From Hyalangium ruber (lineage in GTDB: Bacteria; Myxococcota; Myxococcia; Myxococcales; Myxococcaceae): 64,000 nt of DNA. The stretch is taken from NCBI RefSeq assembly GCF_034259325.1, contig NZ_JAXIVS010000003.1, forward strand, positions 124,001 through 188,000. Reading direction: 5' to 3'. Below, in pieces: positions 4,665-22,911 of this stretch. The notes below the pieces were generated by a model that saw nothing but the letters and a program-made list of their open reading frames with translations, was not told the DNA's origin and searched no databases. Within the stretch, counting starts at the first letter, position 1, and every line of letters begins with the position of its first letter. Position numbers and translations under genes: made by a program.

Positions 4665-4709
4665 TCGAACCGCCCGCCGCCAAGGCGGGTGAAGCAGGGA
4701 GGAGCAGCT

Positions 4710-7127
4710 TTGTCGAACGACGCACGCAGGTGGGCGGCGGCCGCGGCGATGGTGTTCGCCATCGCGGTGGAGGCAGCCGCTCAGTCCCCAGAGCCCGCGG
4801 TGGGAGCGCCCCCTGCGGGCGCGGAAGCTCCTCCCTCCCCGCCGCTGGCGCCCGAGGCTGCCCCTCCTCCCACGGAGGGCAGCGTGCCACCGGCGGCCGA
4901 GCCCTCGGTCGCCGTGCCTCCGGCTCCCACGCCTCAGCCGCCCGAGACCGCGCTGCCCGCGCCGGCCTCGGAGCCGGTGAGTCCCACCCCAGCGCAGGAG
5001 CCCGCGAGCCCCGTGCCCGCGGCGCCCGAGGAGGCCCAGAAGAAGTTCGAGAGCGTGGTGGTGGGCACCTCGGAGACTCGCACCAGCGGCTCGGTCCACG
5101 TGCTCAAGTCGAGCAAGCTCGAGCGCTACGAGCTGGATGATCCCCAGGCCATCCTGCAGTCGGTGCCCGGCGTCTACGGGCGCGGCGAGGACGGCTTCGG
5201 TCTGCGGCCCAACGTGGGCCTGCGGGGCGTCAACCCCGATCGCAGCAAGAAGGTGACGCTCCTAGAGGACGGAGTCCTCTTCGGGCCCGCTCCCTACTCC
5301 GCGCCGGCGGCGTACTACTTCCCGCTGATGACGCGCATGCAGTCGGTGCGCGTGCTCAAGGGCCCCTCGGCCATCCAGCACGGCCCGCAGACCGTGGGCG
5401 GCTCGGTGGAGTTCATCACCCGGGACATCCCCGCCGAGGAGGAGTTCGGCGTGGACTTGAGCGGCGGCCAGTACCTGTCCGGCAAGTTCCACGGCCACTA
5501 CGGGGCGAGCACCGAGTCCTCCGGCTTCCTGCTGGAGGGGGTGCATCTGCGCAGCAACGGCTTCAAGGAGCTCGACGAGGGCGGCCATACGGGCTTCCGC
5601 CGCAACGAGTGGATGATGAAGGCCCGCCACCAGTTCGACTCCGAGGGCGAGTTCCGCCACGGCCTCCAGCTCAAGCTGGGCTACTCGGACGAGGCCTCCA
5701 ACGAGACGTACCTGGGCCTGAGCGACGCGGACTTCGCGCAGAACCCGCTGCGCCGCTATGGGGCCAGCCGAATGGACCACATGGCGTGGCACCGCACCCA
5801 GGTCGTCCTCAGCCACCAGCTCGACGCGGGCGCGCTGGCGGTGACGACCTCGGCCTACCGGCACGACTTCCACCGCATCTGGCGCAAGGTCAACCGCTTC
5901 GCCGGCGTGGACGTCGCCAGCGTGCTGGCCGACCCCACCAGCGCACGCAACTCCATCTACTACGGCGTGCTCACCGGGCAGATCGACGCCTCGACGCCGC
6001 AGGAGACGCTGCTGATCGGCCCCAACAACCGCACCTTCGTCTCGCAGGGGCTCCAGAGCATCGGGCGCTGGAGCACGAAGACGGGCGCCCTGAGCCACAA
6101 CCTGGAGTTCGGCGCGCGCTACCACTTCGACAGCATCGAGCGGCTCCACACGGAGGATGGCTTCCGGATGGTGGGCGGCAGGCTCGTGTCGGACGGCGAG
6201 CAGACGGCGACGACGGCCAACAACATGGACTCGACGCACGCGGTGGCGCTGCACGTCATCGACGCGGTGTCCTGGGGCCCGCTGGTGGTGACGCCGGGCG
6301 TGCGGCTCGAGGTGGTGCGCTCGCGCTCCGTGGACCGGCTCGCGGGCGTGGCGCAGGACGGCTCGCTCGAGGCCCTCATGCCCGGGCTCGGTGTCTATGG
6401 CGGCCTGACCCACTCCCTGGGCCTCTTCGCGGGAGTACACCGTGGCTTCTCGCCGCCCGCGCCGGGACAGTCCGGAGAGGTCGGCCCCGAGCGCAGCATC
6501 AACTACGAGGCGGGCGCCCGGTGGACGCGCAGCGGCGAGCGCGTCGAGGTGGTGGGCTTCCTCAACGACTATTCGAACCTGACGGACGTCTGCACCTTCT
6601 CCAACGGGTGCCTCAACGACAACCTGGACCGGCAGATTGACGCAGGCGAGGCCCGCATCCAGGGCCTGGAGGCCTTCGCGGAGAAGACCTTCCGCCCGGG
6701 CGGTGGGGTGACGTTCCCCCTGTCGGTGGCCTACACCTTCACCCAGACGGAGCTGCTGGAGAGCTTCCGCTCGGCGGACCCGCAGTACGGCACGGTGGAG
6801 GCGGGCGATGAGATGCCCTACGTGCCCCAGCACCAGCTCTTCGCCTCCGCGGGCGTGGAGTCCGCGTTCGGCGGCGTCTTCCTGACCGCCACCTTCCTCG
6901 ACACCATGCGCGAGGAGGCGGGCCAGGGCGAGGCGGCCGCCGGCGAGAAGACCGAGGCGCTGCTGACGTTCGACCTGAACGCGAGCTGGAGCTTCTCGAA
7001 GAACGCCCACCTCTACCTGAGCGCTCGCAACCTGCTCGACAACCAGGCCATCGTCTCCCGCCGGCCCTATGGCGCCCGGCCGAACGCGCCGCGCACCGTG
7101 CTGGTGGGGCTGAAGTACTCGCTCTAG
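4710..7127 (+). CDS. FecA-like TonB-dependent outer-membrane receptor
   Basis: 805 residues if translation starts at the TTG at 4710, which has GGAGGAG (4698-4704) just upstream; a GTG at 4689 is in frame but has no such site. Order: signal peptide (cleavage near 'EAAAQ-SPE'), a Pro/Ala-rich spacer of roughly 85 residues, then the plug domain starting near '[12 protein letters not shown]' with '[19 protein letters not shown]' and '[19 protein letters not shown]', then a 22-strand-type barrel ending at 'GLKYSL'. The plug is most like ferric-citrate receptor FecA, but the N-terminal signalling (STN) domain is absent and no FecI/FecR genes are adjacent, so regulation is probably only through the Fur-like site upstream. 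The substrate is likely a ferric complex, from the FecA resemblance and the operator. The stop codon overlaps the convergent phosphoesterase stop within CTAG. Confidence 0.9.
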
Positions 7128-7984
7128 GCCCGTGCCCCAGGCACGTGCTTCTGGCCACCCACCACCTGACCGCCCGCCACTTCGATGAGCCAGTAGCCCT
7201 CGCGGCCGGCCATGGTGGAGGAGCCCGCGCCGAAGATGTGCGGGCGCTCGTGGGTGGCCGGGTGGTGGTAGCGGTGGTGGATGTGGCCGTGGAGCACGGC
7301 GTAGCGCTCGCCCGGGATGAGCTTGAAGAGCGCCTCCGCGTCTCGCAGCCCGTGCAACTTGGAGTCGGGCCGCCCGCGATGCGTCAGGGGCGCGTGATGC
7401 ACCACCACCAGGAGCGCCCGGCCCGCGAGCCTTGGATCCCGGGTGATGGCCTCCAGCCCCTCGAGCTGCTTCGGGCCGATGAAGCCGCTGGCGATGCCTG
7501 GCACGACAGGCACCCGCGCCGAGAGCAGCCCTACCACCGCGGCCTCCTCACCCACCTTGCGGACGAAGGGGAAGGCACCCTCCCGGCAGTGCTCGGGGGT
7601 ATCGCTCGCCAGCAGGTGACCGAAGTAGCGCTCGAAGCGCCGGCTGCGTTGGCTGCCCGGCGTGTAGACGTCGTGGTTGCCCGGGATGACGGTGCAGCGG
7701 CGCGGGTCCTCCACCAGCTCTCCGAGCGCGTCGCGCGCGCCCTGGAATTCGCTCTCCAAGGCGTAGGCGGTGAGGTCTCCCGAGAGGATGAAGTGGTCCG
7801 CGGCGTGCTTCCGCGACTCGTGCGCGATGGTGGCGAGCGTCTGGGCGGCGTGTCGGTAGGCGCGGGCCCGGCCCCCCACGGTCAGCTCCGCCAGGGCGAC
7901 CCAGCGGCGCCAGCCCAGCCGCAGCAACGGCTGCGCGAAGTAGTCGGCGGTGATGTGGACGTCGGAGCAGTGGACGAAGCGCAT
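7124..7984 (-). CDS. Calcineurin-like metallophosphoesterase
   Basis: 286 residues from the ATG at 7984 (GAGAGA upstream). The longer open frame to 8482 is rejected because homology-like sequence begins at 'MRFVHCSDVH'. The metallophosphoesterase signature blocks are all present in order: D-x-H (SDVHI, residues 7-11), GDLT near 85, GNHDVY near 118 (GNHD/E), a His in 'VVHHAPLTHRG' near 207, and the C-terminal GHIHHRYHH near 249. These ligate a two-metal centre that hydrolyses phosphoesters; the substrate cannot be inferred. No signal peptide, so cytoplasmic. It is convergent with the TonB receptor, sharing the palindromic CTAG in which both stop codons lie. Confidence 0.9.
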   Translation of the reverse strand: MRFVHCSDVHITADYFAQPLLRLGWRRWVALAELTVGGRARAYRHAAQTLATIAHESRKHAADHFILSGDLTAYALESEFQGARDALGELVEDPRRCTVIPGNHDVYTPGSQRSRRFERYFGHLLASDTPEHCREGAFPFVRKVGEEAAVVGLLSARVPVVPGIASGFIGPKQLEGLEAITRDPRLAGRALLVVVHHAPLTHRGRPDSKLHGLRDAEALFKLIPGERYAVLHGHIHHRYHHPATHERPHIFGAGSSTMAGREGYWLIEVAGGQVVGGQKHVPGARA

Positions 7985-10298: not shown

Positions 10299-10404
10299 AG
10301 GCAATCACGCTCGAATTCTCAGGAAGTGAACAGATGCCCACCTTTGCTCCGGATGCGAGCGTCTCGCGGCTCCGCGGAGCGCTCCCTTCGCAGGAGCGGC
10401 AGGC

Positions 10405-11361
10405 ATGGCTGAGATCGTGGAGAAGTCGCGCGTGGAGGCGATCCCAGGTGTCCCCTTCAAGCTGAGCTGGGGCGCCATCTTCGGGGGAACCTTCGTCGCG
10501 CTGGGGGTCTGGGTGCTGCTGTATTCGCTGGGGCTCGCCCTGGGGCTGTCCTCGGTGGATCCGGCGGATCCCGGAAGCGCCAGGGCGGCGGGCATCGGCA
10601 CCGGCATCTGGTCGCTCATTGCGCCGCTCATCGCCCTCTTCGCCGGTGGGCTGGTGGCCTCGCGCACCGCGGGGGTGCTGGACAAGACCGGCGGCGCGCT
10701 GCACGGCGCCGTGCTCTGGGGCCTCACCACGCTGGCGGGCGTCATCATCATGGGCATGGCGATCTCGTCGCTGCTGGGCACCGTGTTCAACGTGGGCAAG
10801 GCCGCGGTGGGCGCCACGGGCACGGCCGTCGTCGGGGCCGCCACGGGCATCGCCTCGCAGGGAGACCAGGCCCAGGGCCTCGCCCGGTCGTTCGGGCTCA
10901 ACGCGGAGGATGCGCTCGCCCCCATCAACCAGCGGTTGCAACAGGAGGGCAAGCCCACCATCACCGCGGCCCAGCTCCAGGCTGCCACCAAGGACGTAAT
11001 CAACACCTCCATCCAGCAGGGCCGCATGGACCGTGAGCTGCTCGTCAACGCCATCGCGCAGAACACCGCGCTCTCGCGTCAGGACGCACAGGAGATCGCC
11101 GGCCGCATCGAGACGCAGTGGAACCAGCAGTGGGGCCAGGTGCAGGCCAAGGCCGGGGAGATCAAGCAGGACGTCCAGCAGGGCGCGCTCCAGGCCGCGG
11201 ACACCACGGGCCGCGTCTTCTGGGGCGTGTTCTTCGCGCTCCTGCTGGGCCTCGTCTCGTCGATCCTCGGCGCCACCCTCGGCGTGAGCAGGCGCCAGCG
11301 CTACTACGCGGGGGGCACCGTGGTGCCGCCGGTGAGCCCTCGCCGCGAGGTGTACCCGTAG
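10405..11361 (+). CDS. Integral membrane protein with glycine-rich membrane segments
   Basis: 318 residues; AGGAG lies about 9 bp upstream of the ATG. Three or four N-terminal membrane segments (about 22-50, 70-92, 105-130) carry many small residues ('GAIFGGTFVALGVWVLLYSLG', 'LIAPLIALFAGGLVASR'). A soluble, Gln/Ala-rich helical region (about 150-270) follows and a last membrane helix at about 275-300 ends in a basic tail. The N-terminal part resembles the YrzE/'PhnA-like' membrane family of unknown function; the central segment looks like a coiled coil. It is a single-gene unit closed by a strong intrinsic terminator. No function is assigned. Confidence 0.75.
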   Translation: MAEIVEKSRVEAIPGVPFKLSWGAIFGGTFVALGVWVLLYSLGLALGLSSVDPADPGSARAAGIGTGIWSLIAPLIALFAGGLVASRTAGVLDKTGGALHGAVLWGLTTLAGVIIMGMAISSLLGTVFNVGKAAVGATGTAVVGAATGIASQGDQAQGLARSFGLNAEDALAPINQRLQQEGKPTITAAQLQAATKDVINTSIQQGRMDRELLVNAIAQNTALSRQDAQEIAGRIETQWNQQWGQVQAKAGEIKQDVQQGALQAADTTGRVFWGVFFALLLGLVSSILGATLGVSRRQRYYAGGTVVPPVSPRREVYP

Positions 11362-11387
11362 GCCGCGACTCCCTGTGGCGGACAGCC

Positions 11388-11422
11388 AGGCTCCTGGGGA
11401 CACGCCAGGAGCCTTCGCTTTT
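11388..11422 (+). terminator. Rho-independent terminator
   Basis: AGGCTCCTGG (11388-11397) pairs perfectly with CCAGGAGCCT (11405-11414) across a 7-nt loop and is followed by TCGCTTTT. It closes the membrane-protein gene and ends only 3 bp before the next start codon, so that gene needs its own promoter inside or after the terminator, or depends on read-through. Confidence 0.8.
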
Positions 11423-11424
11423 GT

Positions 11425-12081
11425 ATGCTCCCCGCCGTGTCGGGCCGCGCCCTCATCCTCTGGATCGTCCTGCCCTTCGTGGGCCTGTGCGCGCTGGCGC
11501 TCTGGCTCACCCGTCCCGAGCCCGACGTGCCGAGTGAACGGCAGGCCGTACCCACGCCTCCGCCCCCGCCTCCCACGCCGGCCCCGGCTCCCGCCGAGCC
11601 TCCTCCTCGCGCCGTCGCGCCCCCCGCCGCCCCGCCCGAAGCGCCCCAGGTGCCTCCGACTCCTGGGGGACAGCCTCCACGCCCGGGGGCTTCCCTCCCC
11701 TCCCGCTTCCTGCCACCCCCGGCCATCTCCATTCCCGAGGCCGAGCCCCGGGAAGAGTCCTCCGAGGGCACGGTGGACAAGGAGGACGTGCGCCGGGCCA
11801 TCCAGTCGGTGGTGCCGTTGATCCGCCAGTGCTTCCAGGACGTGGCCGAGCGCCACCCGGGCACCCATTCGGTCACGCTGCGCTTCACCGTCGAGGGCCA
11901 GGGGCTCACCGGCCACTTCCGGGACGGAGAGGTGGTGGACACCACCGTCCAGGACCCTTTCGCCCAGGCCTGCTTCCTGGACTCCCTCCTGGATGTCCGG
12001 TTTCCGGCACCGCGCGGGGGGGGCAGGGTCACCATCACCTACCCCTTCCGCTTCGTACCCAACCCGGACGCTGGCCGTTGA
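11425..12081 (+). CDS. AgmX/PglI-type C-terminal domain protein
   Basis: 218 residues. One N-terminal membrane helix (about 9-29) is followed by a long Pro/Ala-rich periplasmic linker (about 43-110) and a C-terminal domain (about 115-212) with the pattern 'VRRAIQSVVPLIRQCFQDV' ... 'CFLDSLLDVRFPAPRGGG' ... 'ITYPFRF'. This TonB-C-like fold is found in myxobacterial gliding/adventurous-motility proteins AgmX and PglI and in many lone periplasmic proteins; the two conserved Cys could form a disulfide. The layout is that of a TonB-like energy-coupling or periplasm-spanning protein. The ATG sits directly after a terminator; an in-frame GTG at 11437 is an alternative start. Confidence 0.72.
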   Translation: MLPAVSGRALILWIVLPFVGLCALALWLTRPEPDVPSERQAVPTPPPPPPTPAPAPAEPPPRAVAPPAAPPEAPQVPPTPGGQPPRPGASLPSRFLPPPAISIPEAEPREESSEGTVDKEDVRRAIQSVVPLIRQCFQDVAERHPGTHSVTLRFTVEGQGLTGHFRDGEVVDTTVQDPFAQACFLDSLLDVRFPAPRGGGRVTITYPFRFVPNPDAGR

Positions 12082-12147
12082 GGCTCCCTTCCCGTAAGGT
12101 GCGCCTCGGCTTGTCCGAACCTCACTGGTGCGCCTGACTCACCCCAG

Positions 12148-12993
12148 ATGCCCGCCACCATCGAACAGCTCGGTCCTCAGCACACCGATGCCTTGCGCTC
12201 GTTCCTGGCAAAGGACTCGACGCACAACATCTATCTGCTGGGCCTCTTCGAGGAGTTCGGCATCGTGCCGCGCGCCGGGCGAGCCCGCTTCGCCTTCCAC
12301 GGCCGCTTCGACGCCAGCAAGAACCTCACCGCCGCCCTCTTCGTGGGCGGAGAGGGTGGCCTGGTGGTGCCCTCCGCCAGCGACCCGGCCTTCATCACCG
12401 AGTTGGCCGAGCCCCTCGCGGCGCAGGTGCGGCTCAAGGCCACGCTGGGCGAGAAGCCGGCGGTGGACGCGCTGGTGCGCAGCCTGGGCGCGGGTGCCCG
12501 GCCCCGGCTGTCGCGTACCCACCGCCTGTTCGCCGTCTCCGCCGATGACCTGGGGCCCTTCACCAACCCCACCCTGCGGCTGGCCCGGGAGGAGGATGTG
12601 CCCCGGCTGATGCCGCTGGCGCAGGGCGCGGTGCGCGAGCTGATGGAGCGAGACCCGCTGGCCGAGGACCCGGATGGCTACGAGGCGCGCGTCATGCAGC
12701 GCGTGCGGGGCCGGCGCACCTACGTGCTGGAGGAGCACGGCGCGCTGGTCTTCAAGGTGGACATCGGCAGCCGCTCGCAGCACGGCGCGGAGCTGGAGGG
12801 GCTCTACACCGCGCCCCAGGAGCGCGGAAAGGGCCACGCGACGCTGTGCCTGGGGCAGATCTCCCGGCACCTGCTGTCCTCGCTGCCCCGGCTGGTGCTG
12901 CGGGTGGAAGAGAAGGACGAGAGCATGGCCCGCATCGCGCGCAAGGTGGGCTACCTGGCCCAGCGGGTCCACCGCCTGGTCCTCCTGGAATAG
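12148..12993 (+). CDS. GNAT-family N-acetyltransferase (two-lobed, DUF4081-like)
   Basis: 281 residues. The N-terminal half ('LRSFLAKDSTHNIYLLGLFEEFG', about 16-38) resembles the DUF4081-type lobe found before some GNAT domains. The C-terminal half is a GNAT acetyltransferase: 'LRLAREEDVPRLMPL' opens the fold, and 'GLYTAPQERGKGHATLCLG' (about 218-236) is the acetyl-CoA pyrophosphate-binding loop (Q/RxxGxG/A type). The substrate is unknown. No clear Shine-Dalgarno sequence precedes the ATG. It lies 6 bp upstream of the miaE-like gene, so the two probably share a transcript. Confidence 0.88.
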   Translation: MPATIEQLGPQHTDALRSFLAKDSTHNIYLLGLFEEFGIVPRAGRARFAFHGRFDASKNLTAALFVGGEGGLVVPSASDPAFITELAEPLAAQVRLKATLGEKPAVDALVRSLGAGARPRLSRTHRLFAVSADDLGPFTNPTLRLAREEDVPRLMPLAQGAVRELMERDPLAEDPDGYEARVMQRVRGRRTYVLEEHGALVFKVDIGSRSQHGAELEGLYTAPQERGKGHATLCLGQISRHLLSSLPRLVLRVEEKDESMARIARKVGYLAQRVHRLVLLE

Positions 12994-12999
12994 ATCGCC

Positions 13000-13620
13000 A
13001 TGTCCCGTCCCACGCCCAGCCGTCGTCCCCTCTCTGGAGAGGGGCCTGTCATCCTCCACGCGCCCACGGATGCGCGCTGGCTCCCGTTGGCCCTCGAGCG
13101 CTTCGATGAGGTGCTCGTCGACCACGCCCACTGCGAGAAGAAGGCGGCGGCCAACGCCTTGTCGATGCTGCAGGTGTACCCGGACCTGCCCGGGCTGCCA
13201 GCGCAGATGGCGCGGCTGGCACGCGAGGAGAGCGCCCACCTGGCCCGGGTGTTGGACTTGATGGCCGCGCGCGGGCTCACGCTCACGAAGGACGCGGGGG
13301 ACCCGTACGCGCAGGGGCTGCAGAAGTTCATCCGCAACCCCTCGGCCGAGCGCCGGGTGGACCGGCTGCTGGTGGCGGCGGTCATCGAGGCGCGCTCGTG
13401 CGAGCGGCTCTCCCTGCTCGCCGAGGGACTGGAGGACCCGGCGCTGCGCCGCTTCTATGGAGAGCTGGCGCAGTCGGAGGACGGGCACCAGTCGCTCTTC
13501 TACAAGCTGGCCGTCACGGCGAGCGGGGATGAGGCGGCGGTGCGGGAGCGGCTGGAGGTGCTGCTGGCCCGCGAGGCCGAGGTGCTGACCGCCATCGGGG
13601 TGCGCGCGGCGATCCACTGA
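13000..13620 (+). CDS. miaE: tRNA-(ms2io6A37) hydroxylase (MiaE-type diiron enzyme)
   Basis: 206 residues, the usual size for MiaE. It is a ferritin-like four-helix diiron monooxygenase that hydroxylates the isopentenyl group of ms2i6A at tRNA position 37. Family signatures are intact: 'DHAHCEKKAAANALSML' (about 40-56), 'AREESAHLARVLDLM' with an ExxH pair (about 74-88), 'IEARSCERLSLL' (about 128-139), and 'QSEDGHQSLFYKLA' with the last ExxH-like pair (about 157-170). It follows the GNAT gene by 6 bp. Assignment rests on the motif order and length. Confidence 0.9.
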   Translation: MSRPTPSRRPLSGEGPVILHAPTDARWLPLALERFDEVLVDHAHCEKKAAANALSMLQVYPDLPGLPAQMARLAREESAHLARVLDLMAARGLTLTKDAGDPYAQGLQKFIRNPSAERRVDRLLVAAVIEARSCERLSLLAEGLEDPALRRFYGELAQSEDGHQSLFYKLAVTASGDEAAVRERLEVLLAREAEVLTAIGVRAAIH

Positions 13621-13670
13621 GGGCAGTGCTAGGGTGAGCGGGCTGCTCCACCCGTCCCAGGAGGACGCTG

Positions 13671-14099
13671 ATGCGCCGTGTATGGATGATGGCCCTGGCT
13701 TTCACCGGACTGGTCGCCTGCGGAGAGAACGCCACCCTCGAGGTGCCCATTCAGGCGGTGGGAGACTCTGGAATCACCGGCTCGCTGACGGTGGAGGAGA
13801 TCCCCGGCAAGTCGGGCTTCGGTGAGGTGCGCTTCGGGTTCACGGTGAGCGACACGGGCACGCGGCAGGTGATCGGCTTCGTCCATGAAGGCCGGTGCGC
13901 CTCGCTGGGCATGCACGAGCACCGGGAGGGCTTCGAGCCAGATGGCTACCCCCGGCAGCGGGCGTACATCCGAGAGGGGCACAAGGGGCACGCGGAGCGC
14001 ATCGGCTCCTTCCAGGGCTCGCATGCCTTCGCCGTCCACGAGCGCATCACGGACATCGAGGACGCTAGCGGCGCGGTGCTCGCCTGCGGCGACATCTAG
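13671..14099 (+). CDS. Small secreted lipoprotein with a SOD/CHRD-like C-terminus
   Basis: 142 residues; a strong GGAGG precedes the ATG. The signal peptide ends in TGLVACGE (lipobox Cys about 17). The middle and end show a pattern seen in small Cu/Zn-SOD- or CHRD-like beta-sandwich proteins: 'FVHEGRCA' (about 70-77), several His ('GMHEHREG', 'HKGHAER'), then 'HAFAVHERITDIED' and the terminal 'ACGDI'. The paired Cys of 'GRC' and 'ACGDI' could form a disulfide. Copper binding or enzyme activity cannot be claimed from sequence alone. It is followed by about 285 bp without a recognisable gene before the convergent RADAR island. Confidence 0.7.
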   Translation: MRRVWMMALAFTGLVACGENATLEVPIQAVGDSGITGSLTVEEIPGKSGFGEVRFGFTVSDTGTRQVIGFVHEGRCASLGMHEHREGFEPDGYPRQRAYIREGHKGHAERIGSFQGSHAFAVHERITDIEDASGAVLACGDI

Positions 14100-14384
14100 A
14101 GCCAAGCCCCACAGGCAAGCACTGCAGAAACGGATCCGTGAGTTCCAGCAGCGGCGGGCTGCGACCTCCCTCGCGGCTGAAGCAAACCCAGGTGAACGGT
14201 GGAAGGCAGGTCGCCCTAAGCTAAAGGCCTGCCAAAGCTGCTTGTCTTGAAGATCTCCTCAAGCCAGACGCGGATTCCGCAACGCCAACGCAAGGATTCG
14301 GACCTGAGCCACAGCCCCCTCCCCCAGGCCTCGACTCTCACGGTACCGTGTCCGAGAAAGCGCGAGCAGCGCGTGACGCCTGCG

Positions 14385-17078
14385 CTACACCGGGGCACGC
14401 CCAGAGCGAGGCCGCCGTGAGCGCCGCTCCGGCATACGGGAATAGTTCGGAAGTGTGAAGCGCGCCCTCAATCCATTCTTACGGACTTGGTCCAGCCAGT
14501 TCATCGCGTCCTGGGCCCCTATGCCCTGACGAACGAGTTGATAATAAAGATAGGAAAACTCGTCAGGCAGACAGCTCGCGAAGGTGATCGGGTCATCGTC
14601 GCCAAGGCTCACGGGGACCGGGCCGCCTTCGGCCGCCTGCATGCCGGCTAGCGGTTGAAGCGCGAAGATGGGGTGAGCCTCGAAGGGGATATCCCCAATG
14701 AGTAGGTTGCTGGAGGGATTGGCCTCCACGGTCATACCCCGCTGGGCCACATGCTTGCGCAGGAAGTATTGCATACGGCGCAGCACCTGGACCTCTCCAT
14801 CTGTGGCCTGGACTTCGGTGGTGCGCTGTCCACGGTGATAGACGTCATAGTCCGTTAGATACCTCCACAGCAGCCAATCCTGGGGCTGCGCTGCGGCCGC
14901 AACAATACGTCGACGCGAGAGCGCGCCCATGTGGGGATAGCCAAGCCTCTTGAGCACTCCTGGAGAGTGTCGCTGCTTCCAAGCCTCAATCAATACATCG
15001 GCGGGAATGGGATTCTCGTAGATCTGCCGAGAGAGATTGGCAACCTCACCGCGTACCGCCTCGATGCGCGAGGAGTCCACTGGAATGCACTGCTCTCGAT
15101 ATAGGTGGAGTTCCCAGACGAGATCGTCGAGCCGCTCTTCAAGGGGCTGCCGCGTAATCGGTGTGGTTGCAGCCCATCGTCCTGGGTCCAGCCCGAGCGC
15201 CACGGCGTGCCCTAGCCGATCTCCTGGGCCTAGCATGTGGAACATCAGCGGCTCATGAATACGCCGCAGTCCTTCCACCAAGCGGCGAAAGTCCTCTCCC
15301 GCGTGGAGGGTAAACCGAAATGGAGGAACATGCCCGAGGTGAGCCAGTTTCTGGGAGACCTGCTCAGAATGGGCCCGCAGCCGCTGGAAGAGGGGAATGA
15401 AGACCCAAGAGGGGATTGCCAGTTCCAAGCTGCACACATCCAGGCCACGCAGGATGACGAGCAGTTCAGGGTGCCGCTGAAGCGCGGTCTCGATGGCTTG
15501 CGCCTCGCGTAGACGGTCAGAGAAGTACTGGCCAAACCGGCAGGCATGTCCAGCTGAGCGTGGGTCAGCGTAGGACATGCCCTTACCACCAGGGCGCTCT
15601 GCTAGCTTCACAAAGTGAAGGACGAGCCCACGCTCTGGATTGCACTCAGGGGGTGCATCCACGTCACGAGCAATGTCTCTGACTAGGGTTCGCACCTCGG
15701 CCCAGGAGCTTGGAGGCGAAGTTCGAACCTCCAAAGATGAGAGTGGAGCGGGACCTTTTCCCTCAAGATGAAGGGCAGCGCTCATCAGCGCCTGCTCCAT
15801 TCCTTTACGCAAGCTGCCGATGCGCCGGAAGTGTGTAGAGAACCAGTCGAGTCCAGCAGTTCCTGGTTCCTGAACGAGGTGCCGGTATGTCCGGTTTCGG
15901 ATGCGGACATACTGCCAGAACACCCTCTCGAAAAGATCCTCTCCCCGTGATGTCCACCGGCCCCCCGTAGCCTCGACCCGCTGGCGCTCCATGCGCACCT
16001 GTCTCAGCCAGCGCATGGCTTCGAACAAGAGGAGGGTTTCTGGCAAGCACCCGGGCTGGGTGACATGCGGCAGATGAAGACTCCTTCCTCCGAGCTTCCA
16101 TTTGTAGAGGGGATCCGCCTCCCGGATTTCTGGTAGCGAAGCAGGGAGCCGAGCGGGAGCGGGACCAGCTAGACGTCGCAGCTGCGACCTCGCACTCACG
16201 AATGGTACGGGTGCATTGCCACGCAGGAGCGCACTCACCACAGAGAGAAACTCGCGCGGCTCCTCGGTGCGCCCAGCCAGCCGGGGCATGTACCTTGCGA
16301 AGTTCGGCTCTTGCAATTGCCTCAGGAAGGAGGCGAGGCATAAACGCGCCACCCCGGCAGTCACCAACCACCCTAGGAACTCCTGCTCTCCACCAAACGG
16401 TGTCCCCGCAGCGCAGTGGAGCGGTCCGGGTTGAACCTCGTCGGTTGAGATCCGTGACATCAGATGAGTCCACAGGACGCCAAATGAGAGGGCCGCGCCT
16501 AAGTGGAGGTGGGTTTGCGCGATACCATCCTCGCAGAAGAACCGATCCAAGTGCTCGGCGCCTAGCGACACATGATCACAGGCTGGAGCACTGCTGGTCT
16601 CGGTGACACAGCAGAATGACGCGAGGAGTAGGTCCTGTGGCAATGCCAACGAAAGCCAGCGCCACGCGGCGATTCTGTCCTCGATGTTCTCGCTCCCTCT
16701 TGGAGCAGACGGGACCACTGAAGCGAGAGGCCCATCCCGGATGAAGAACTTGCCTCCGCTAGCTGTCAGCAAGCGGGAGGTGAACGAGCCGACATAATCC
16801 TCCAACGAGGCATTGTGGCCGGGGCGATCCAAAGACTTCTCCGCAGTGGAGAACCAAACGTGGTCTTGGAGCCTACGCAGGACTTCTAGGGAAGTTCCGC
16901 GCGAACGAGGGCGCAACCACTGAAGCAAGTCCTCTGAGAGTGCTTGTGTGGACTTTCCGAGAGCTCTCGTGGGGGTTTGCTCCAATCGCACAAAGCACCG
17001 CCGAAAGCCAGCCTCTGACCACAGAGGCCACGAGGCGATCTCAGCCTCTAGATGCCGGATATGAACGGGGTCAGTCAT
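14385..17078 (-). CDS. rdrB: RdrB, adenosine deaminase subunit of a RADAR anti-phage system
   Basis: 897 residues. All metal and catalytic motifs of the adenosine deaminase fold are present but widely spaced: HxH in 'THLHLGA' (His190, His192), 'LHAGED' (His592, Glu595), 'DRLGHAVALG' (His624), 'EANPSSNLLIG' (about 786-795) and 'LGDDDP' (825-830) holding the zinc Asp pair. A metabolic adenosine deaminase is only about 340 residues; the long insertions and the neighbouring large P-loop ATPase identify RdrB, which deaminates ATP/dATP and/or RNA adenosines during phage infection. The ATG is 20 bp after the rdrA stop, so the pair forms one operon; there is no good Shine-Dalgarno, which suggests coupling. 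Base composition is clearly less GC-rich and codon use less biased than in neighbours, consistent with horizontal acquisition. The call is confident from motifs plus context, without a database search. Confidence 0.9.
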   Translation of the reverse strand: MTDPVHIRHLEAEIASWPLWSEAGFRRCFVRLEQTPTRALGKSTQALSEDLLQWLRPRSRGTSLEVLRRLQDHVWFSTAEKSLDRPGHNASLEDYVGSFTSRLLTASGGKFFIRDGPLASVVPSAPRGSENIEDRIAAWRWLSLALPQDLLLASFCCVTETSSAPACDHVSLGAEHLDRFFCEDGIAQTHLHLGAALSFGVLWTHLMSRISTDEVQPGPLHCAAGTPFGGEQEFLGWLVTAGVARLCLASFLRQLQEPNFARYMPRLAGRTEEPREFLSVVSALLRGNAPVPFVSARSQLRRLAGPAPARLPASLPEIREADPLYKWKLGGRSLHLPHVTQPGCLPETLLLFEAMRWLRQVRMERQRVEATGGRWTSRGEDLFERVFWQYVRIRNRTYRHLVQEPGTAGLDWFSTHFRRIGSLRKGMEQALMSAALHLEGKGPAPLSSLEVRTSPPSSWAEVRTLVRDIARDVDAPPECNPERGLVLHFVKLAERPGGKGMSYADPRSAGHACRFGQYFSDRLREAQAIETALQRHPELLVILRGLDVCSLELAIPSWVFIPLFQRLRAHSEQVSQKLAHLGHVPPFRFTLHAGEDFRRLVEGLRRIHEPLMFHMLGPGDRLGHAVALGLDPGRWAATTPITRQPLEERLDDLVWELHLYREQCIPVDSSRIEAVRGEVANLSRQIYENPIPADVLIEAWKQRHSPGVLKRLGYPHMGALSRRRIVAAAAQPQDWLLWRYLTDYDVYHRGQRTTEVQATDGEVQVLRRMQYFLRKHVAQRGMTVEANPSSNLLIGDIPFEAHPIFALQPLAGMQAAEGGPVPVSLGDDDPITFASCLPDEFSYLYYQLVRQGIGAQDAMNWLDQVRKNGLRARFTLPNYSRMPERRSRRPRSGRAPV

Positions 17079-17098
17079 GGATGCTTGAGAATGAGGTT

Positions 17099-20000
17099 TT
17101 AAGACTGTCCATGGGTCTCATTAGCGAAGATCTTGAACCAAGGGTGCCCACCAGCAGCTTGATCGATCTCATTGAGAAACCGCTTGACGGTCCTCGTGTC
17201 GGCGGAAATTCCGGCCCGCACGAGCGCGACCTTGGCGCGGCTGCGGCGCACCTCCAGTATCTCCGCGACGCGCCCTGGCGAGGCATCTTTCCATGCGCTG
17301 AGGTAGGCCTCCGCCGCCCAAACTGGCATCCCGGACTCCGGTGCTCCATAGAGGGCCGCTGCTCCCTGGGCCCATTCGACAGCCCGGAGAAAACGTGCTC
17401 CCCCCACTTTCGAGGAAAAAGTCACCTCACGAATTCGCTTTCCCAACAAGGCAAGTTCTTCACTGCCAATATTGAGGTTGGGACTTTGAGGATCAACATT
17501 TCGCGTTAGGCACAACTTGCGCATGCCGTCCAAGAAGGCGTGAAACAAGGCAACAAGCGCGACCTCGCTCAAGCTGCTGCCAGTCTCCTGTAGAAGGGGG
17601 TCGATCCTCTTGAACATTAGCGTCCAGATCTGGTTTGTTTCCTTCCAATCCAGGAAAGTACCCCACCCTGGAACCAGCCAGTCAAACTCGAAAGAGCGCG
17701 AAGCCTGCCGAAGCACGGTTGTCGCTCGAGGGAGGACCGCCTTAGATGGAGAGATGGAGGGAGGGAGCAGATCTTCTAGAGAGCCCCGTCCGTCGTCTTC
17801 ATCAAATTGAACATCGTGAGCGACCTGCAAGAGCCCTTCCAGCGCGCTTGCGGGTTTCTCGAATCCGTCTCCCAAGGGGAAGATCCGCAATGCGTAGGCA
17901 AGTCCTGGTGTTGAATCCGCTTCCGCACGCGCAGCCACCTCTTTTTCAGGGCGTGCGCGTTGAGTGACGGGCTCCGTCAACCATTGGCGCATATTCTCAG
18001 GCAGGTGGAGTTTCAAGCGATTCTTCTTCTCCACGATCATCTGATCGAGGCTCCGCCGCTGAGACTCAGGGGCCGGGTTTACGACGAAGAAGCGCCAGAG
18101 CAGACGAAGGACAAGCGGCGCCGCGCCTTCGATGAGCACATACCGCTCCAAGCGATCCTGGAGTTCCTTGAGCCGTTGGGGATCCGAGAGAGACAGCAGG
18201 GGCTTGACATGCAATTCAGCGAGATACTCCTGAAGAGTGGGCGGAGTCTGAATGGAACTGGCTGGGGGATGCTGAACGATAACCTTTTCGAGCAAGTCTT
18301 TGATTTCCGTGGGGAGGCCAATGACAGGCTCTGCTCTGTCTTCGATCGCGCGTCCCCAGACAAACCGATCATGAGCATTGTCTATCTCGGCCAGAATGCT
18401 CTCCTCCCCTCCTCCCTTGCCCTTGGCTTCTCGAATAGCATACCGAACCTTTGCTCGGCGAGCATGCCGAGCGGCATCCAAGGCCTGCTCCCGGAACCAC
18501 TTGTCCTGGGTCTTCAGTGCTGCCAGCCATTGGAGCAACAGGCTGTTGGCTAATTCCTCGGGGAGGCCATACTCCGGGGCGGCGAGTAGAATCGCCTCCC
18601 CCAGCAACCAGTTGTAGAAACCCAGCGTTCGCAGCGTCTTGTTCTCGCTCGTATGCAACCGAGCCGCTTCGCGCACAATGCGTTGGATGAGCGGGCCCCA
18701 GCTAGAAGACTCCCGAGGAGCTTCCTGGGAGGTCAAGACAGGAACATCAGGTAGGGTACGCCGCAGCCCTACCTCGACAATTCCCCAGAGGTACAAGTAA
18801 ACCATCTCGCCGTACCACACGTTGGCGGCGGCTTTGTCCTCTTTCAAGCGAAGCAGGTGCCTTGCCCAAGCCTTGTCAAAGACACTGAAATCAATGGGCG
18901 CTGCCCATTCGGGAATTGGCCAGGTAAAGGCCAACTGGCTGGAGAGTTTCCCCAGGGGCTGGAGATGACTTACGACCAGCGGGTAGTCGATATGCCGAGG
19001 CGCCGGGGCAGTTCGTGGAAAGCTGCCGCTGACTATGTCCGCTGCCACGTTCATCGCCAGCATGAGTAGGCTGGTAAGATAGTCCTCAAGCTCTCGAAGC
19101 TGAGACCTCTGCTCTCCAGTTTGAGGAGACCTTTCAACGATGGGCCCCTTGAACGTAAAGCCCGTGATGATGTTGACGTTCAGGGAGAGCTTCTCACTCG
19201 GCTTCAATCGATTGATGCGCCGTGCGAGGGGCTCCAGCTTCTGCTCAACATCCACACGCAGCTCGCCGTCCTGATTGACCTGAACCAACTGCTTGAGCAG
19301 CGCCTGCTCATCCGTGGTCCATTGCCCATTCTCGATAGTGTCCGTCCAGAGCCGGCTGATCCGCATCATCGCATGGGGGTCTCGCTCCAGGCGTTGGCGA
19401 ACGTTCTGGATCTGACGCAGCCGGTGGGGCAAGCCCTGCTGAAGCGCTGGGGAGAGTTCGAAGTAGCCAGCAAGCGTCGGCGGAGCGAAATCTTCGTCCC
19501 CTTCCTTCTGGATGGACACGGTCAACATGTCCTTCAAGAGAAGGAACCTCTCTGTCCCACTGAGCTTCGCTAGCTTGAACCGATGTCCTGCGGGTATCAC
19601 CTTGTCATAGGCTTGAAGCCCGAGTTGGCGCGCGTTGGGCTTCGCCTCTACATAGTCGAACTCGCGGTCCGTCAGGGCGCCATTACCGAGCGGTTGGCGC
19701 ATCATCTTGAGGTAGTGCAGGTGCAGTGTCTTCTGGAATAGCGGGCTGTGGCCGGTGAGGATGAAGAACACCCGGGGAGCCCAAAGCGAACGCATGAGCT
19801 CTAGCAGGTCCACGCACCGGTGAGGATTCATGTCCGCATCATCGATCGGGATGATGAGCCGCGCGTTCTCATCCACAAGATGGGGATAGAGGCGATGGGC
19901 GTCGGCGATCACTGCATCTAGGAAATAGCGCCACTGGTCGAAGACCGTGAGCCTTGCTCGCTCCGCCTGCTTGAGTTCCTCGGCATAACTGTCTGGGTCG

Positions 20001-20719
20001 AGAGAGCCCTGGCGAGCAGGTAGGTTGCTGGCCCAGCCGAGGGCAGCACACTGCAACAGATTGCGCCACTGCCGGCGTGATGCGAGTTCTTTCTCCCACT
20101 CCGGTTCCCAGCTCGCGATGGGTGCCGTATTCTCCCGAATCTCCCGTCCCCCCGAGGGATCCTCCAGGTGGTCCACCAGTTCCAGGAGCCGGCCAGCAAT
20201 CCATGGGAGCAAGGACGTCGATGGCGGGAGCGGCTGGAGGTCTAGCGGTCGAATTGGAACAAGCTTGCGAGCCAGCGGCCCCTGTAGCCGAGCGATGAGT
20301 TCCAAGGGGGCTCCATGCTCCTCGTTTCGGGCGGTCGAGCCGCCACCCTCAAGGACGGAAGGACCGAACAAGTCCGAGCGAAGCTGCGCTCCATCCCCCG
20401 CAGCGGCGCGCCTCCAGAGCCGGAGCGCAGTGAGAAGGACGCTCGTCTTCCCGCTTCCACGTCCTCCGTCGATGAGGATGACGTTGGAGGGGCGATGCTC
20501 ATGGATCTCTTGATAGTCGAAGGGACTCCGCGTCATCCCTGTGCGGAGCCCTTTGTCCAAGGGAGACTTGATGAAGTCTTCGAGCCACTGGTGAATCTCC
20601 ACGACGACCTTGCGTTGGTCCTCCGTCAGATCTGCCCAGTACAGAGGGCGGGCTTCGGGACGGACCACGGAGGACTCGGCGGACTTCCGCTCCTGCGCAA
20701 TACCATCGTTCGTAGGCAT
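17099..20719 (-). CDS. rdrA: RdrA, ATPase subunit of a RADAR anti-phage system
   Basis: 1206 residues from the ATG at 20719, chosen over an in-frame ATG at 20773 because GGGGGGAG lies just upstream. A KAP/STAND-like P-loop ATPase: Walker A 'GGRGSGKTS' (85-93), a long insertion, Walker B 'LIIPIDDADMN' (288-298) and a sensor-like 'VFFILTGH' (317-324). The remaining ~880 residues are mostly helical and unlike any enzyme I recognise. In studied RADAR systems RdrA is a ring-forming ATPase that associates with the RdrB deaminase to give abortive-type phage defence. This one is longer than the roughly 900-950 residues I recall for characterised RdrA proteins. Lower GC and frequent A/T third positions mark it, with rdrB, as a foreign island. 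No RdrC/RdrD-type accessory gene is visible. Confidence 0.85.
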   Translation of the reverse strand: MPTNDGIAQERKSAESSVVRPEARPLYWADLTEDQRKVVVEIHQWLEDFIKSPLDKGLRTGMTRSPFDYQEIHEHRPSNVILIDGGRGSGKTSVLLTALRLWRRAAAGDGAQLRSDLFGPSVLEGGGSTARNEEHGAPLELIARLQGPLARKLVPIRPLDLQPLPPSTSLLPWIAGRLLELVDHLEDPSGGREIRENTAPIASWEPEWEKELASRRQWRNLLQCAALGWASNLPARQGSLDPDSYAEELKQAERARLTVFDQWRYFLDAVIADAHRLYPHLVDENARLIIPIDDADMNPHRCVDLLELMRSLWAPRVFFILTGHSPLFQKTLHLHYLKMMRQPLGNGALTDREFDYVEAKPNARQLGLQAYDKVIPAGHRFKLAKLSGTERFLLLKDMLTVSIQKEGDEDFAPPTLAGYFELSPALQQGLPHRLRQIQNVRQRLERDPHAMMRISRLWTDTIENGQWTTDEQALLKQLVQVNQDGELRVDVEQKLEPLARRINRLKPSEKLSLNVNIITGFTFKGPIVERSPQTGEQRSQLRELEDYLTSLLMLAMNVAADIVSGSFPRTAPAPRHIDYPLVVSHLQPLGKLSSQLAFTWPIPEWAAPIDFSVFDKAWARHLLRLKEDKAAANVWYGEMVYLYLWGIVEVGLRRTLPDVPVLTSQEAPRESSSWGPLIQRIVREAARLHTSENKTLRTLGFYNWLLGEAILLAAPEYGLPEELANSLLLQWLAALKTQDKWFREQALDAARHARRAKVRYAIREAKGKGGGEESILAEIDNAHDRFVWGRAIEDRAEPVIGLPTEIKDLLEKVIVQHPPASSIQTPPTLQEYLAELHVKPLLSLSDPQRLKELQDRLERYVLIEGAAPLVLRLLWRFFVVNPAPESQRRSLDQMIVEKKNRLKLHLPENMRQWLTEPVTQRARPEKEVAARAEADSTPGLAYALRIFPLGDGFEKPASALEGLLQVAHDVQFDEDDGRGSLEDLLPPSISPSKAVLPRATTVLRQASRSFEFDWLVPGWGTFLDWKETNQIWTLMFKRIDPLLQETGSSLSEVALVALFHAFLDGMRKLCLTRNVDPQSPNLNIGSEELALLGKRIREVTFSSKVGGARFLRAVEWAQGAAALYGAPESGMPVWAAEAYLSAWKDASPGRVAEILEVRRSRAKVALVRAGISADTRTVKRFLNEIDQAAGGHPWFKIFANETHGQS

Positions 20720-21048
20720 GGACTCCCCCCAAGTGAGCCTCCACGGCAAGCCGCACCGGCTTGCCAGGATCATCCACTCATCATGCCAGCCAGAAACAGG
20801 GGGTCCAAGTACCGAGTTGTTGCGAGAACACCTCGATTGTGTTCGAGGGTTGTGTAGCCTACGAGGCCATCTCGATAGACCCCCACCCCTGACAACATGA
20901 CCCTCGGGAGAGGAATTGGCAGAACGCTCTCCCGAACTGGCTGTTGAGGGCCTGCTTGAAGTGCATCCAGACCCGTACAGCTCTGGATGTAAAGACAGCG
21001 CTTGGCCCCGCCTGTAACGTCAGCAGCGTACTTCCTTCAGAAACCTAG
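20720..21048. other. Gene-free spacer: rdrA leader/promoter region and SLC13 3' flank
   Basis: No coding frame was supported here. The part next to rdrA holds two inverted repeats: the hairpin at 20745-20765 and CCTCGA-N6-TCGAGG at 20831-20848, a possible operator. It also contains the in-frame ATG at 20773. The part nearer 21049 is the 3' flank of the SLC13 gene; no T-rich terminator was seen. No tRNA or attachment-site repeat was recognised at this island edge. Confidence 0.5.
20745..20765 (-). promoter_or_regulatory. rdrA: Perfect hairpin in the rdrA leader
   Basis: GGCAAGCCG (20745-20753) and CGGCTTGCC (20757-20765) are perfectly complementary over 9 bp with a 3-nt loop. The stem ends 25 bp before the rdrA ATG, just above its GGGGGGAG ribosome-binding site. 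It would form in the mRNA leader if transcription starts upstream, and could limit translation of the toxic-when-active system. The function is inferred. Confidence 0.5.
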
Positions 21049-22911
21049 CTAGGGCGAGGGCGAGGGCGCGCTGAGGCTCACCGGCACCCCGGCCTTCGAC
21101 TCCTGGGAGCCCTGGGTCTGGAAGGGCCACACCGTTGGCACCATGAACACCAGGAACGCCACCAGCAGCGCCGTCAGCGGCGTGCCCAGCCGGAAGAAGT
21201 CCGTGAACCGGTAGTGCCCCGGGCCGTAGACGAGCACACAACTGGGCTCCAAGGGCGTGATGAACGAGCAGCTCGCCGCCAGCGTGATTCCGATGGCGAA
21301 CGGCCGCGCGTCCACCCCGAGCTGCGCCGCCGCGCTGATCCCCACCGGCAACACCACCAGCGCCGCCGCCTGGTTGCTCATGGGCGCCGACAACAGGATG
21401 GTCAGCACCATCAACACCGCCAGCACCATGCGCGGCCCTCCATATGCCCCCATCCCCGCCGCCAGGTTGCCCAGGTACCTGCCCGCCCCGCTCACCTCCA
21501 TCGCCACGCCCAGCGCCATCATCGAGCCGATGAGCAGCACCACCCGCCAGTCCACCCGGAAGGCGATGCGCGCGTCCACGCAGCCGGTGACGATCATCGC
21601 CAGCATCCCCGCCAATCCCGCCACCGACAGGGGCACCACCTCCAGCGTTCCCATGGCCAGCGCGCCCAGGAAGAGGCACACCGCCAAGAGCGCCTTGCCG
21701 TAGCGCGGCGGCTGGTACTCGTAGTCGCTGAGCACCAGCAGCGTCGTGCCGTCGGCCAGCTCCGCCACGCGCGAGCGCGGCCCGCGCAGCAGCAGCACAT
21801 CTCCCACCGACAGTGGCATGGCCGACAGCGACTGCTCCCCGAAGATGCGCCCCAGCATCTGCAGCTTGGTGAGCCGCTGGATGGCCGGCTTGCGGTGCAG
21901 CGCCAGCGCCACCAGCCCGTAGCGCTCCACGAAGAGCACCTCCTTCAGGCTCCGCCCCACCAGCGGGCTCCCCGGCGGCACGCTCGCCTCCACCAGCACC
22001 GCATCCCGGCTGCTCAGCTCCGCATCGCCCAGCTTCACGTCCGGGCGGATGTCGATGCCCTTCAGGTCCTTCACCCGGAGGATGTCCTCGCGCTTGCCCT
22101 CGACGATGAGCCGCTCATCTCCCACCAATTGGTACGTCGGCAGCGCCGGGATGGACTGCCCTCCCCGGATCAGCCCGATGACACGCAACCCCAGGCCCTC
22201 GGTGATCTCCGCCAGCTCCTTGCCCAGGTAGCGCGAGTCCCTCGGAAGCACCGCCTCGGTGAGGTAGTCGCGCAGCGACCACTCGCTCACCCCCGCCCCG
22301 TCCGCCCGCGAGGGCAGCAGCAGCGGCCCCAGCAGCACCACCACCAGGATACCGATGACCGCGATGGGCAGCCCCACCGGCGCCAGCTCCGCCACGCCGA
22401 TGCCCCTCATCCCCATCTTCTCCATGGCCGCCGAGGCCACGAGGTTGGTGGAGGTACCGAACAGGAAGATCGTCCCCCCCAGCATCGACGCGTACGCCAG
22501 CGGCAGGAGCACCTTGCTCTTGGGCACCTTGGCCCGGTGCGCCGCGCCGATCGCCACCGGCAGGAACGCCGCCGTCGTCACCGTGTTGGAGATGATCGAC
22601 GAGAAGGCCGCCACCGCCCCCATCATCGCCAGCACGAACACCTGGTGGCCGTAGCGCGCGAAGAAGGCGAGCCGTTGCCCCACCAGCTGCACCACGCCCG
22701 TGGAGGCAAGCCCCTGCGTCATCGCCAGCAGGGTGAAGATGAAGATGACCGTGTCGTTGCTGAACCCCTCGAAGGCCTGCTGCGGCGTGAGCACCCCCGT
22801 AATGGCCAGCAGGCACACGATGGTGAGCGAGCTCACCTCGATCGGAATGGTGTCGAGCGCGAAGAGCACCAGCGCGATGACGACGATGCCCAAGACGATG
22901 GCGATAGTCAT
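21049..22911 (-). CDS. SLC13/DASS-type anion transporter with two internal RCK_C domains
   Basis: 620 residues. Five or six N-terminal membrane helices (about 1-200) are followed by a cytoplasmic insert of about 180 residues and then a second membrane half (about 400-600). The insert contains two TrkA-C/RCK_C-like segments ('GKELAEITEGLGLRVIGLIRGG' at about 225-246 and 'GRSLKEVLFVERYGLVALALHR' at about 315-336). The helical-hairpin motifs of the family are present: 'IISNTVTTAAFLPVAIG' and 'LSAPMSNQAAALVVLPVG', the N-T/N-Q signature of DASS transporters. Members move dicarboxylates, sulfate or other anions with Na+ or H+; the RCK-bearing subgroup is often annotated as sulfate or sulfur-compound permease. 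No sulfur-assimilation gene is nearby, so the substrate is open. Confidence 0.88.
   Translation of the reverse strand: MTIAIVLGIVVIALVLFALDTIPIEVSSLTIVCLLAITGVLTPQQAFEGFSNDTVIFIFTLLAMTQGLASTGVVQLVGQRLAFFARYGHQVFVLAMMGAVAAFSSIISNTVTTAAFLPVAIGAAHRAKVPKSKVLLPLAYASMLGGTIFLFGTSTNLVASAAMEKMGMRGIGVAELAPVGLPIAVIGILVVVLLGPLLLPSRADGAGVSEWSLRDYLTEAVLPRDSRYLGKELAEITEGLGLRVIGLIRGGQSIPALPTYQLVGDERLIVEGKREDILRVKDLKGIDIRPDVKLGDAELSSRDAVLVEASVPPGSPLVGRSLKEVLFVERYGLVALALHRKPAIQRLTKLQMLGRIFGEQSLSAMPLSVGDVLLLRGPRSRVAELADGTTLLVLSDYEYQPPRYGKALLAVCLFLGALAMGTLEVVPLSVAGLAGMLAMIVTGCVDARIAFRVDWRVVLLIGSMMALGVAMEVSGAGRYLGNLAAGMGAYGGPRMVLAVLMVLTILLSAPMSNQAAALVVLPVGISAAAQLGVDARPFAIGITLAASCSFITPLEPSCVLVYGPGHYRFTDFFRLGTPLTALLVAFLVFMVPTVWPFQTQGSQESKAGVPVSLSAPSPSP

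Follow-up and report, generated by a model that had tools for sequence, protein, structure and literature searches.

A divergent RADAR locus in Hyalangium ruber with a tandem C-terminal domain in RdrA

The locus

The window analyzed here is a stretch of 64,000 nucleotides from the myxobacterium Hyalangium ruber (contig NZ_JAXIVS010000003.1, positions 124,001 to 188,000). It carries two adjacent genes, rdrA and rdrB, which together form a RADAR anti-phage system. The pair is a true RADAR, and its RdrA, with a C-terminal lobe present in tandem, is a new structural variant. The full reading, that this is a horizontally acquired rdrA-rdrB anti-phage operon of a divergent clade whose RdrA has two tandem C-terminal domains (CTDs) after its AAA+ region, is given a probability of roughly 0.8. 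The source genome (G000) is 10.8 Mb long in 43 contigs and belongs to a family shared with Pyxidicoccus, Corallococcus, and Myxococcus.

Both genes lie on the minus strand, 20 bp apart. An original prediction, made from the sequence alone, had described two such genes of 1206 and 897 residues, and both open reading frames are exactly as it gave them. For rdrA, which is read from the ATG at 20719, an alternative in-frame ATG upstream at 20773 would give 1224 residues. The features of the pair, all on the minus strand, are as follows.

17099..20719, minus: rdrA, AAA+ ATPase with two CTDs, 1206 residues (open reading frame, NCBIfam, profile, and model match)
19493..20719, minus: RdrA residues 1-409, AAA+ region (invariant Walker A and B; aligns with E. 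coli and S. suis RdrA)
20444..20467, minus: RdrA Walker A GGRGSGKT, residues 85-92 (K91)
19832..19855, minus: RdrA Walker B IIPIDDAD, residues 289-296
18329..19492, minus: RdrA CTD1, first copy of the C-terminal domain, residues 410-797 (hhalign against CTD2; alignment with E. coli RdrA)
17114..18253, minus: RdrA CTD2, second copy and extra module, residues 823-1202 (tandem repeat of CTD1; absent in loci L048-L051)
14385..17078, minus: rdrB, (d)ATP-deaminase-like subunit, 897 residues (PADLOC, PDB 8fnw, model against E. coli RdrB)
16503..16511, minus: RdrB metal motif H190-L-H192 (invariant)
15291..15305, minus: RdrB HAGED, with H592 and catalytic E595 (H592, G594, and E595 invariant)
15207..15218, minus: RdrB R621-L-G-H624 (R621, G623, and H624 invariant)
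14706..14720, minus: RdrB NPSSN, N787-N791
14589..14597, minus: RdrB D828-D829-P830 (D828 and P830 invariant, D829 nearly invariant)

The base composition of the pair differs from that of its surroundings. The guanine plus cytosine (GC) fraction is 0.58-0.62 between about 14.0 and 21.0 kb, compared with about 0.70 on either side. At third codon positions (GC3) it is 0.66-0.69 in rdrA and rdrB and 0.83-0.97 in the neighboring genes. The low-GC island that had been predicted is real, but it consists only of the two genes and about 0.5 kb of non-coding DNA. No further defence gene was found beside the pair, nor any accessory RADAR gene next to it.

RdrB, the deaminase subunit

The 897-residue protein is RdrB. 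It matches the PADLOC RdrB models (E=1.2e-30) and the NCBIfam RdrB model (E=2.6e-38, 132.1 bits), and in a phmmer search of the PDB the only family matched was E. coli RdrB (8fnw, E=1.2e-31). The expected adenosine deaminase motifs HxH, HAGED, RLGH, NPSSN, and DDP were all located. Among 39 relatives drawn from several phyla, no variation is seen at H190, H192, H592, E595, H624, or D828, the catalytic columns. The first five of these are the counterparts of H152, H154, H498, E501, and H530 in the E. coli protein.

Predicted structure points the same way. The AlphaFold model of the RdrB monomer, with a mean confidence score (pLDDT) of 87.7, fits E. coli RdrB best, with a structural alignment Z score of 34.5 over 691 residues (14-877 against 1-798) at about 20% identity. 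Ordinary deaminases align with a Z score of about 22 over only about 310 residues. Since the match to E. coli RdrB extends far beyond the deaminase core, the elements that set RdrB apart from metabolic deaminases are present. In the model, these include the insertions, specific to RdrB and lacking in ordinary deaminases, from which the dodecameric shell of RADAR is built.

A useful comparison is Cad1, a CARF-adenosine deaminase of type III CRISPR systems. It shares the deaminase fold and is described as defending by conversion of ATP to ITP (PMC11645235). Unlike RdrB, Cad1 is gated by its CARF domain and has no RdrA partner, and its deaminase core alone aligns (Z 22.6 over 280 residues).

RdrA, the ATPase subunit

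The 1206-residue protein is an AAA+ (ORC/Cdc6-like) RdrA with the RdrA fold, including the C-terminal helical lobe. It had been predicted to be a KAP/STAND-like ATPase; the match to the Pfam KAP_NTPase family falls under the cut-off, and that label does not hold. Used alone, the sequence has no match in the PDB by phmmer. With a profile built from the window RdrA and four close relatives, an RdrA annotated in Aliivibrio scores E=4.3e-12, and none of the neighboring genes is matched as a decoy. The best PDB match of a profile of 37 RdrA relatives is E. coli RdrA (E=4e-10).

The RdrA monomer model (pLDDT 78.3; its residue 1 is residue 7 of the protein) has RdrA structures from E. coli and S. suis as its top seven structural matches, from 8HR8 (Z 22.0, 496 residues) to 8FNU (Z 17.9). 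The first match outside the family is BrxC, at Z 12.8. Sequence, gene order, and predicted structure thus agree on the RADAR architecture for both proteins, as originally proposed.

Both Walker motifs are intact. Walker A (K91) and the two aspartates of Walker B correspond to K82 and D221/D222 in E. coli RdrA. R435 is invariant among the relatives and is a candidate for sensor 2 (R377 in E. coli RdrA).

A side observation concerns Walker B in other RADAR systems. In a large subclade found in Corallococcus, other myxobacteria, Methylococcaceae, and Burkholderiales, the second Walker B aspartate of RdrA is replaced by asparagine. All 26 subclade RdrAs in which the motif was found read PIDN[VI]D or PVDNVD, whereas RdrAs of the window clade, like that of the annotated Aliivibrio RADAR, have DD. 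The observation concerns L047:10859-13723 (on contig C10 of G000), L036-L045, L053, L059, L062, L063, L065, and members of L080-L108. With this natural change from Asp to Asn, weaker ATP hydrolysis is to be expected.

A duplicated C-terminal domain

The extra length of RdrA is a tandem copy of its own C-terminal domain. In an alignment of the clade, residues 800-1206 are missing from the closest relatives. When residues 410-797 are compared with residues 823-1202 using hhalign, the two regions match with a probability of 99.9 (E=5.2e-31, 21% identity). In a control, the AAA+ region compared with the same CTD2 target gives a probability of 5.6. The unusual length of RdrA is thus due to a repeat of the entire region that follows the AAA+ motor. 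The original prediction of a divergent subtype, possibly with an extra C-terminal module, was borne out, and the module proves to be this second copy.

The repeat is also visible in the model. In the secondary structures of CTD1 and CTD2, 73% of aligned residues agree, compared with 39-49% in a shifted register. E. coli RdrA aligns with model residues 13-792, reaching its own residue 909, so CTD2 has no counterpart in that protein. Likewise, S. suis RdrA (907 residues) matches the predicted fold (8FNU, as above) but covers only model residues 23-675, with nothing opposite CTD2.

The copies were counted with a profile built from the more conserved half of the C-terminal unit. Two matches are found in 11 RdrAs, the second being weak in L109, and all other RdrAs have at most one.

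In RADAR as described by Duncan-Lowey et al. (PMC9994260), the equivalent of the duplicated region is the C-terminal lobe, for which they suggested a role in sensing the pathogen.

Relatives of the operon

A search of representative genome contigs with the single sequence found no relatives. Queried with an alignment, the representative genomes yielded 51 loci, distributed over Myxococcota, Planctomycetota, Acidobacteriota, Pseudomonadota, and other groups. RdrB relatives are present in 31 of 195 Myxococcota genomes. At each locus, leaving out contig-edge fragments and locus L110, a gene of RdrA size lies directly upstream of rdrB, with a gap of -58 to +93 bp. All 62 upstream proteins tested, five plasmid references among them, are RdrA by profile. 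The rdrA-rdrB tandem order is conserved in nearly all relatives. No RdrB relative was found in viral contigs or phage records, and there is thus no sign of carriage by phages.

In an RdrB tree, built with a quick method, rooted at the midpoint, and supported by the Shimodaira-Hasegawa-like approximate likelihood ratio test (SH-aLRT), the window sequence belongs to a clade of 17 Myxococcota and Planctomycetota rows (support 98). The sister group of the window sequence is L048-L051 (97), followed by a Planctomycetota sequence with an RdrA of 1197 residues (95). Two CTDs are present in 11 of the 17 rows and one CTD in five (L048-L051 and L054); L104 enters neither count.

The closest relatives by RdrB, at 48-49% identity, are the short-RdrA systems L048-L051 (for instance in Pyxidicoccus caerfyrddinensis). 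Unlike the window system, they have an RdrA of 830-872 residues with a single CTD. Two-CTD RdrAs of 1108-1197 residues occur in the Planctomycetota locus L069 and in L046, L052, L055, L056, L058, L060, L061, L073, and, weakly, L109. These share the rdrA-rdrB order with the window pair but differ in their hosts and chromosomal sites, and their RdrBs are 32-42% identical to that of the window. The long-RdrA form thus extends beyond the window, and it represents one of two RADAR clades across Myxococcota. A long-RdrA, two-gene form in Myxococcota had been put forward as potentially new; it is new as a structural variant but occurs at other loci too, including in Planctomycetota.

Loss of the second CTD in L048-L051 and L054, rather than repeated gain, is the simpler reading, because the single-copy lineages nest among double-copy ones. 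Single-copy CTDs score higher with a CTD1 profile than with a CTD2 profile. A tree of the CTD copies is weakly supported and settles neither loss nor repeated gain.

The NCBIfam RdrB model detects all 39 RdrBs (best E 6e-53), but their scores fall far under its 800-bit cut-off. The NCBIfam RdrA model matches 28 of 37 RdrAs (best E 9.7e-16), again far under 600 bits, and the two PADLOC RdrA models match 12 and 8 of the 37 at E<=0.001. With such scores, the window clade would tend to escape automatic annotation.

A published survey reported RADAR in under 1% of genomes (PMC9994260), a far smaller share than the 31 of 195 Myxococcota genomes with an RdrB relative. As a side observation, one Corallococcus genus (g6, G075-G090) has an RdrB relative in 15 of its 16 sampled genomes. 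Several of these loci (e.g., among L036, L039, L041, L042, and L063) lie between the same two genes, of about 385-403 and 680 residues, and have a host-like GC3. RADAR, though reported as rare, looks like a near-core gene in this group.

Insertion site and probable horizontal acquisition

The pair lies between miaE and a transporter gene. The features of the site are as follows.

13621..21048, no strand: insert relative to related genomes (the two flanking genes are about 5-60 bp apart in many Myxococcaceae; low-GC RADAR part about 14106-21045)
13000-13620, plus: miaE, left flank of the insert
21049-22911, minus: CitMHS/TrkA_C transporter, right flank of the insert

The two flanking genes are neighbors in many Myxococcaceae. 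They are 6 bp apart in one genome (G100:C201) and about 5-60 bp apart in others, compared with about 7.4 kb in the window. RADAR makes up the low-GC portion of these 7.4 kb. Within the family the junction is variable (window 13621-21048; L122-L141), being either near-empty or filled with 0.6-21 kb of differing cargo. In the nearest genus, the counterparts of the two flanking proteins share 87-91% identity with them; for RdrB, identity to the closest relative is 48-49%. Taken together, the near-empty junctions, the drop in GC, and the contrast in identity between flanks and RdrB fit horizontal gain. The proposed horizontal transfer of the rdrA-rdrB pair is therefore supported.

Two other views of the site were considered. 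A tRNA-borne island was rejected, since neither an Rfam scan nor a tRNA scan of the window gave a hit. The junction was also considered as a defence hotspot; in a partial check its cargo differed between genomes, and a defensive nature was not borne out.

Between miaE and RADAR there is a 142-residue open reading frame (13671-14099, plus strand) with a high GC3 and a lipoprotein-like N-terminus. It has no Pfam or PADLOC match and is probably a host gene outside RADAR. In Archangium lansinium (L057, RdrA at 3705-7487), a second-clade RADAR adjoins a miaE-acetyltransferase pair, on the opposite side from the window site.

Three RADAR pairs in one genome

The H. ruber genome carries two further RADAR pairs, on contigs C2 and C10. 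The C2 pair (L046) belongs to the same clade as the window pair and has a two-CTD RdrA of 1159 residues. The C10 pair (L047) belongs to the second clade, with an RdrA of 954 residues. Three pairs are likewise found in Myxococcus sp. RHSTA-1-4 (G126).

Around the C2 pair (L046:1-3800, 10325-15892) are a protein kinase resembling PD-T4-6 models and a SUKH-3 immunity-like protein, and nearby lies a protein of 1855 residues for which no family match was found. The RdrB profile also has a fourth, short match in the genome (G000:C18:34234-34428, E=3.8e-8, profile positions 762-834), which is probably an ordinary adenosine deaminase.

Proposed mechanism and alternatives

In RADAR, the RdrA ring, a heptamer, docks through its crown on the RdrB shell, a dodecamer, and upon infection ATP and dATP are deaminated to ITP and dITP (PMC9994260). 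By analogy with the systems of E. coli, Citrobacter rodentium, and S. suis, the window RdrA would form a ring powered by ATP, and the crown of this ring would dock on the shell made by RdrB. Phage infection would then lead RdrB to convert ATP and dATP to ITP and dITP, blocking phage replication. The residues required for (d)ATP deamination chemistry are conserved in the window pair, and we infer that it may carry out the same conversion.

The ring turns its crown side toward RdrB, and its C-terminal lobe flares in the opposite direction, so that CTD2 would add a further layer at the free outer end. The duplication most likely would enlarge or diversify the putative sensor of phage signals and leave the chemistry unchanged. 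A more specific proposal goes further, namely that this is a RADAR subtype in which a second complete sensor lobe makes a three-layered ring with wider or changed phage recognition. The subtype would have arisen once, in a clade made up mainly of myxobacteria, would have been lost again in some lineages, and would act alongside one- and two-lobe RADARs in the same cell. This proposal is tentative, at somewhat less than even odds.

The best-characterized comparison is E. coli RADAR (RdrA 8FNT/8HR8, RdrB 8FNV/8HR7; PMC9994260). Both systems have the rdrA-rdrB order, an AAA+ ring protein, and a deaminase with the same inserted elements and all zinc and catalytic residues. They differ in sequence (about 20% identity) and in RdrA, which in E. 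coli is a chain of 947 residues with one C-terminal lobe.

Several points weigh against the reading of the pair as a horizontally acquired RADAR operon with a doubled CTD. Two E. coli features, the sensor-1 Asp and the run of Glu at interface 3, are not clearly conserved: the position of D253 is a histidine in the window RdrA and variable among relatives, and E595-597 of E. coli RdrB lie opposite S-R-Q in a phmmer alignment, in a gappy and poorly aligned stretch. The CTD2 portion of the RdrA model has moderate confidence (pLDDT about 50-90). At the edges of the insert there are neither target-site repeats nor mobility genes, and no experimental work on this clade was found in the open-licence literature. 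Finally, RdrA scores 43.7 bits (E=1.3e-11) against the NCBIfam model, too weak for the curated models to call it; neither protein reaches the cut-offs of the equivalogs NF041743/NF041744 (600 and 800 bits). These models describe a narrower group; falling short of their cut-offs weakens the automatic call but leaves the assignment to RADAR in place.

An unlikely alternative is a RADAR homologue whose output (RNA editing or another adenine-nucleotide substrate) or trigger is unlike that of the E. coli system. RNA editing was the activity first reported for C. rodentium RADAR (PMC9994260), and the long RdrA and the low identity of RdrB to its E. coli counterpart leave room for change. The active site and the shell-building insertions are nevertheless kept over the full length of RdrB, and the E. 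coli enzyme showed no RNA editing under conditions in which ATP was deaminated (PMC9994260).

It is far less probable that the pair is an inactive, decaying copy. The atypical composition and the two other RADAR pairs, which may make it redundant, would allow this, but both long frames are uninterrupted over 6.3 kb and keep all catalytic residues.

A metabolic nucleoside deaminase operon with no link to defence is hardly credible. Weak matches to general adenosine deaminase models speak for it, but the RdrB model matches E. coli RdrB far more extensively than ordinary deaminases, and the gene is paired with rdrA, patchily present, and alien in base composition.

Implications

Phage sensing in RADAR has been proposed to reside in the C-terminal lobe of RdrA (PMC9994260). 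Because this lobe occurs naturally in duplicate here and close relatives have a single copy, the proposal can be tested through lobe deletions or swaps. The open-licence literature yielded no paper on RADAR in Myxococcota. With a clade that scores so far under the model cut-offs, RADAR is probably undercounted in this phylum.
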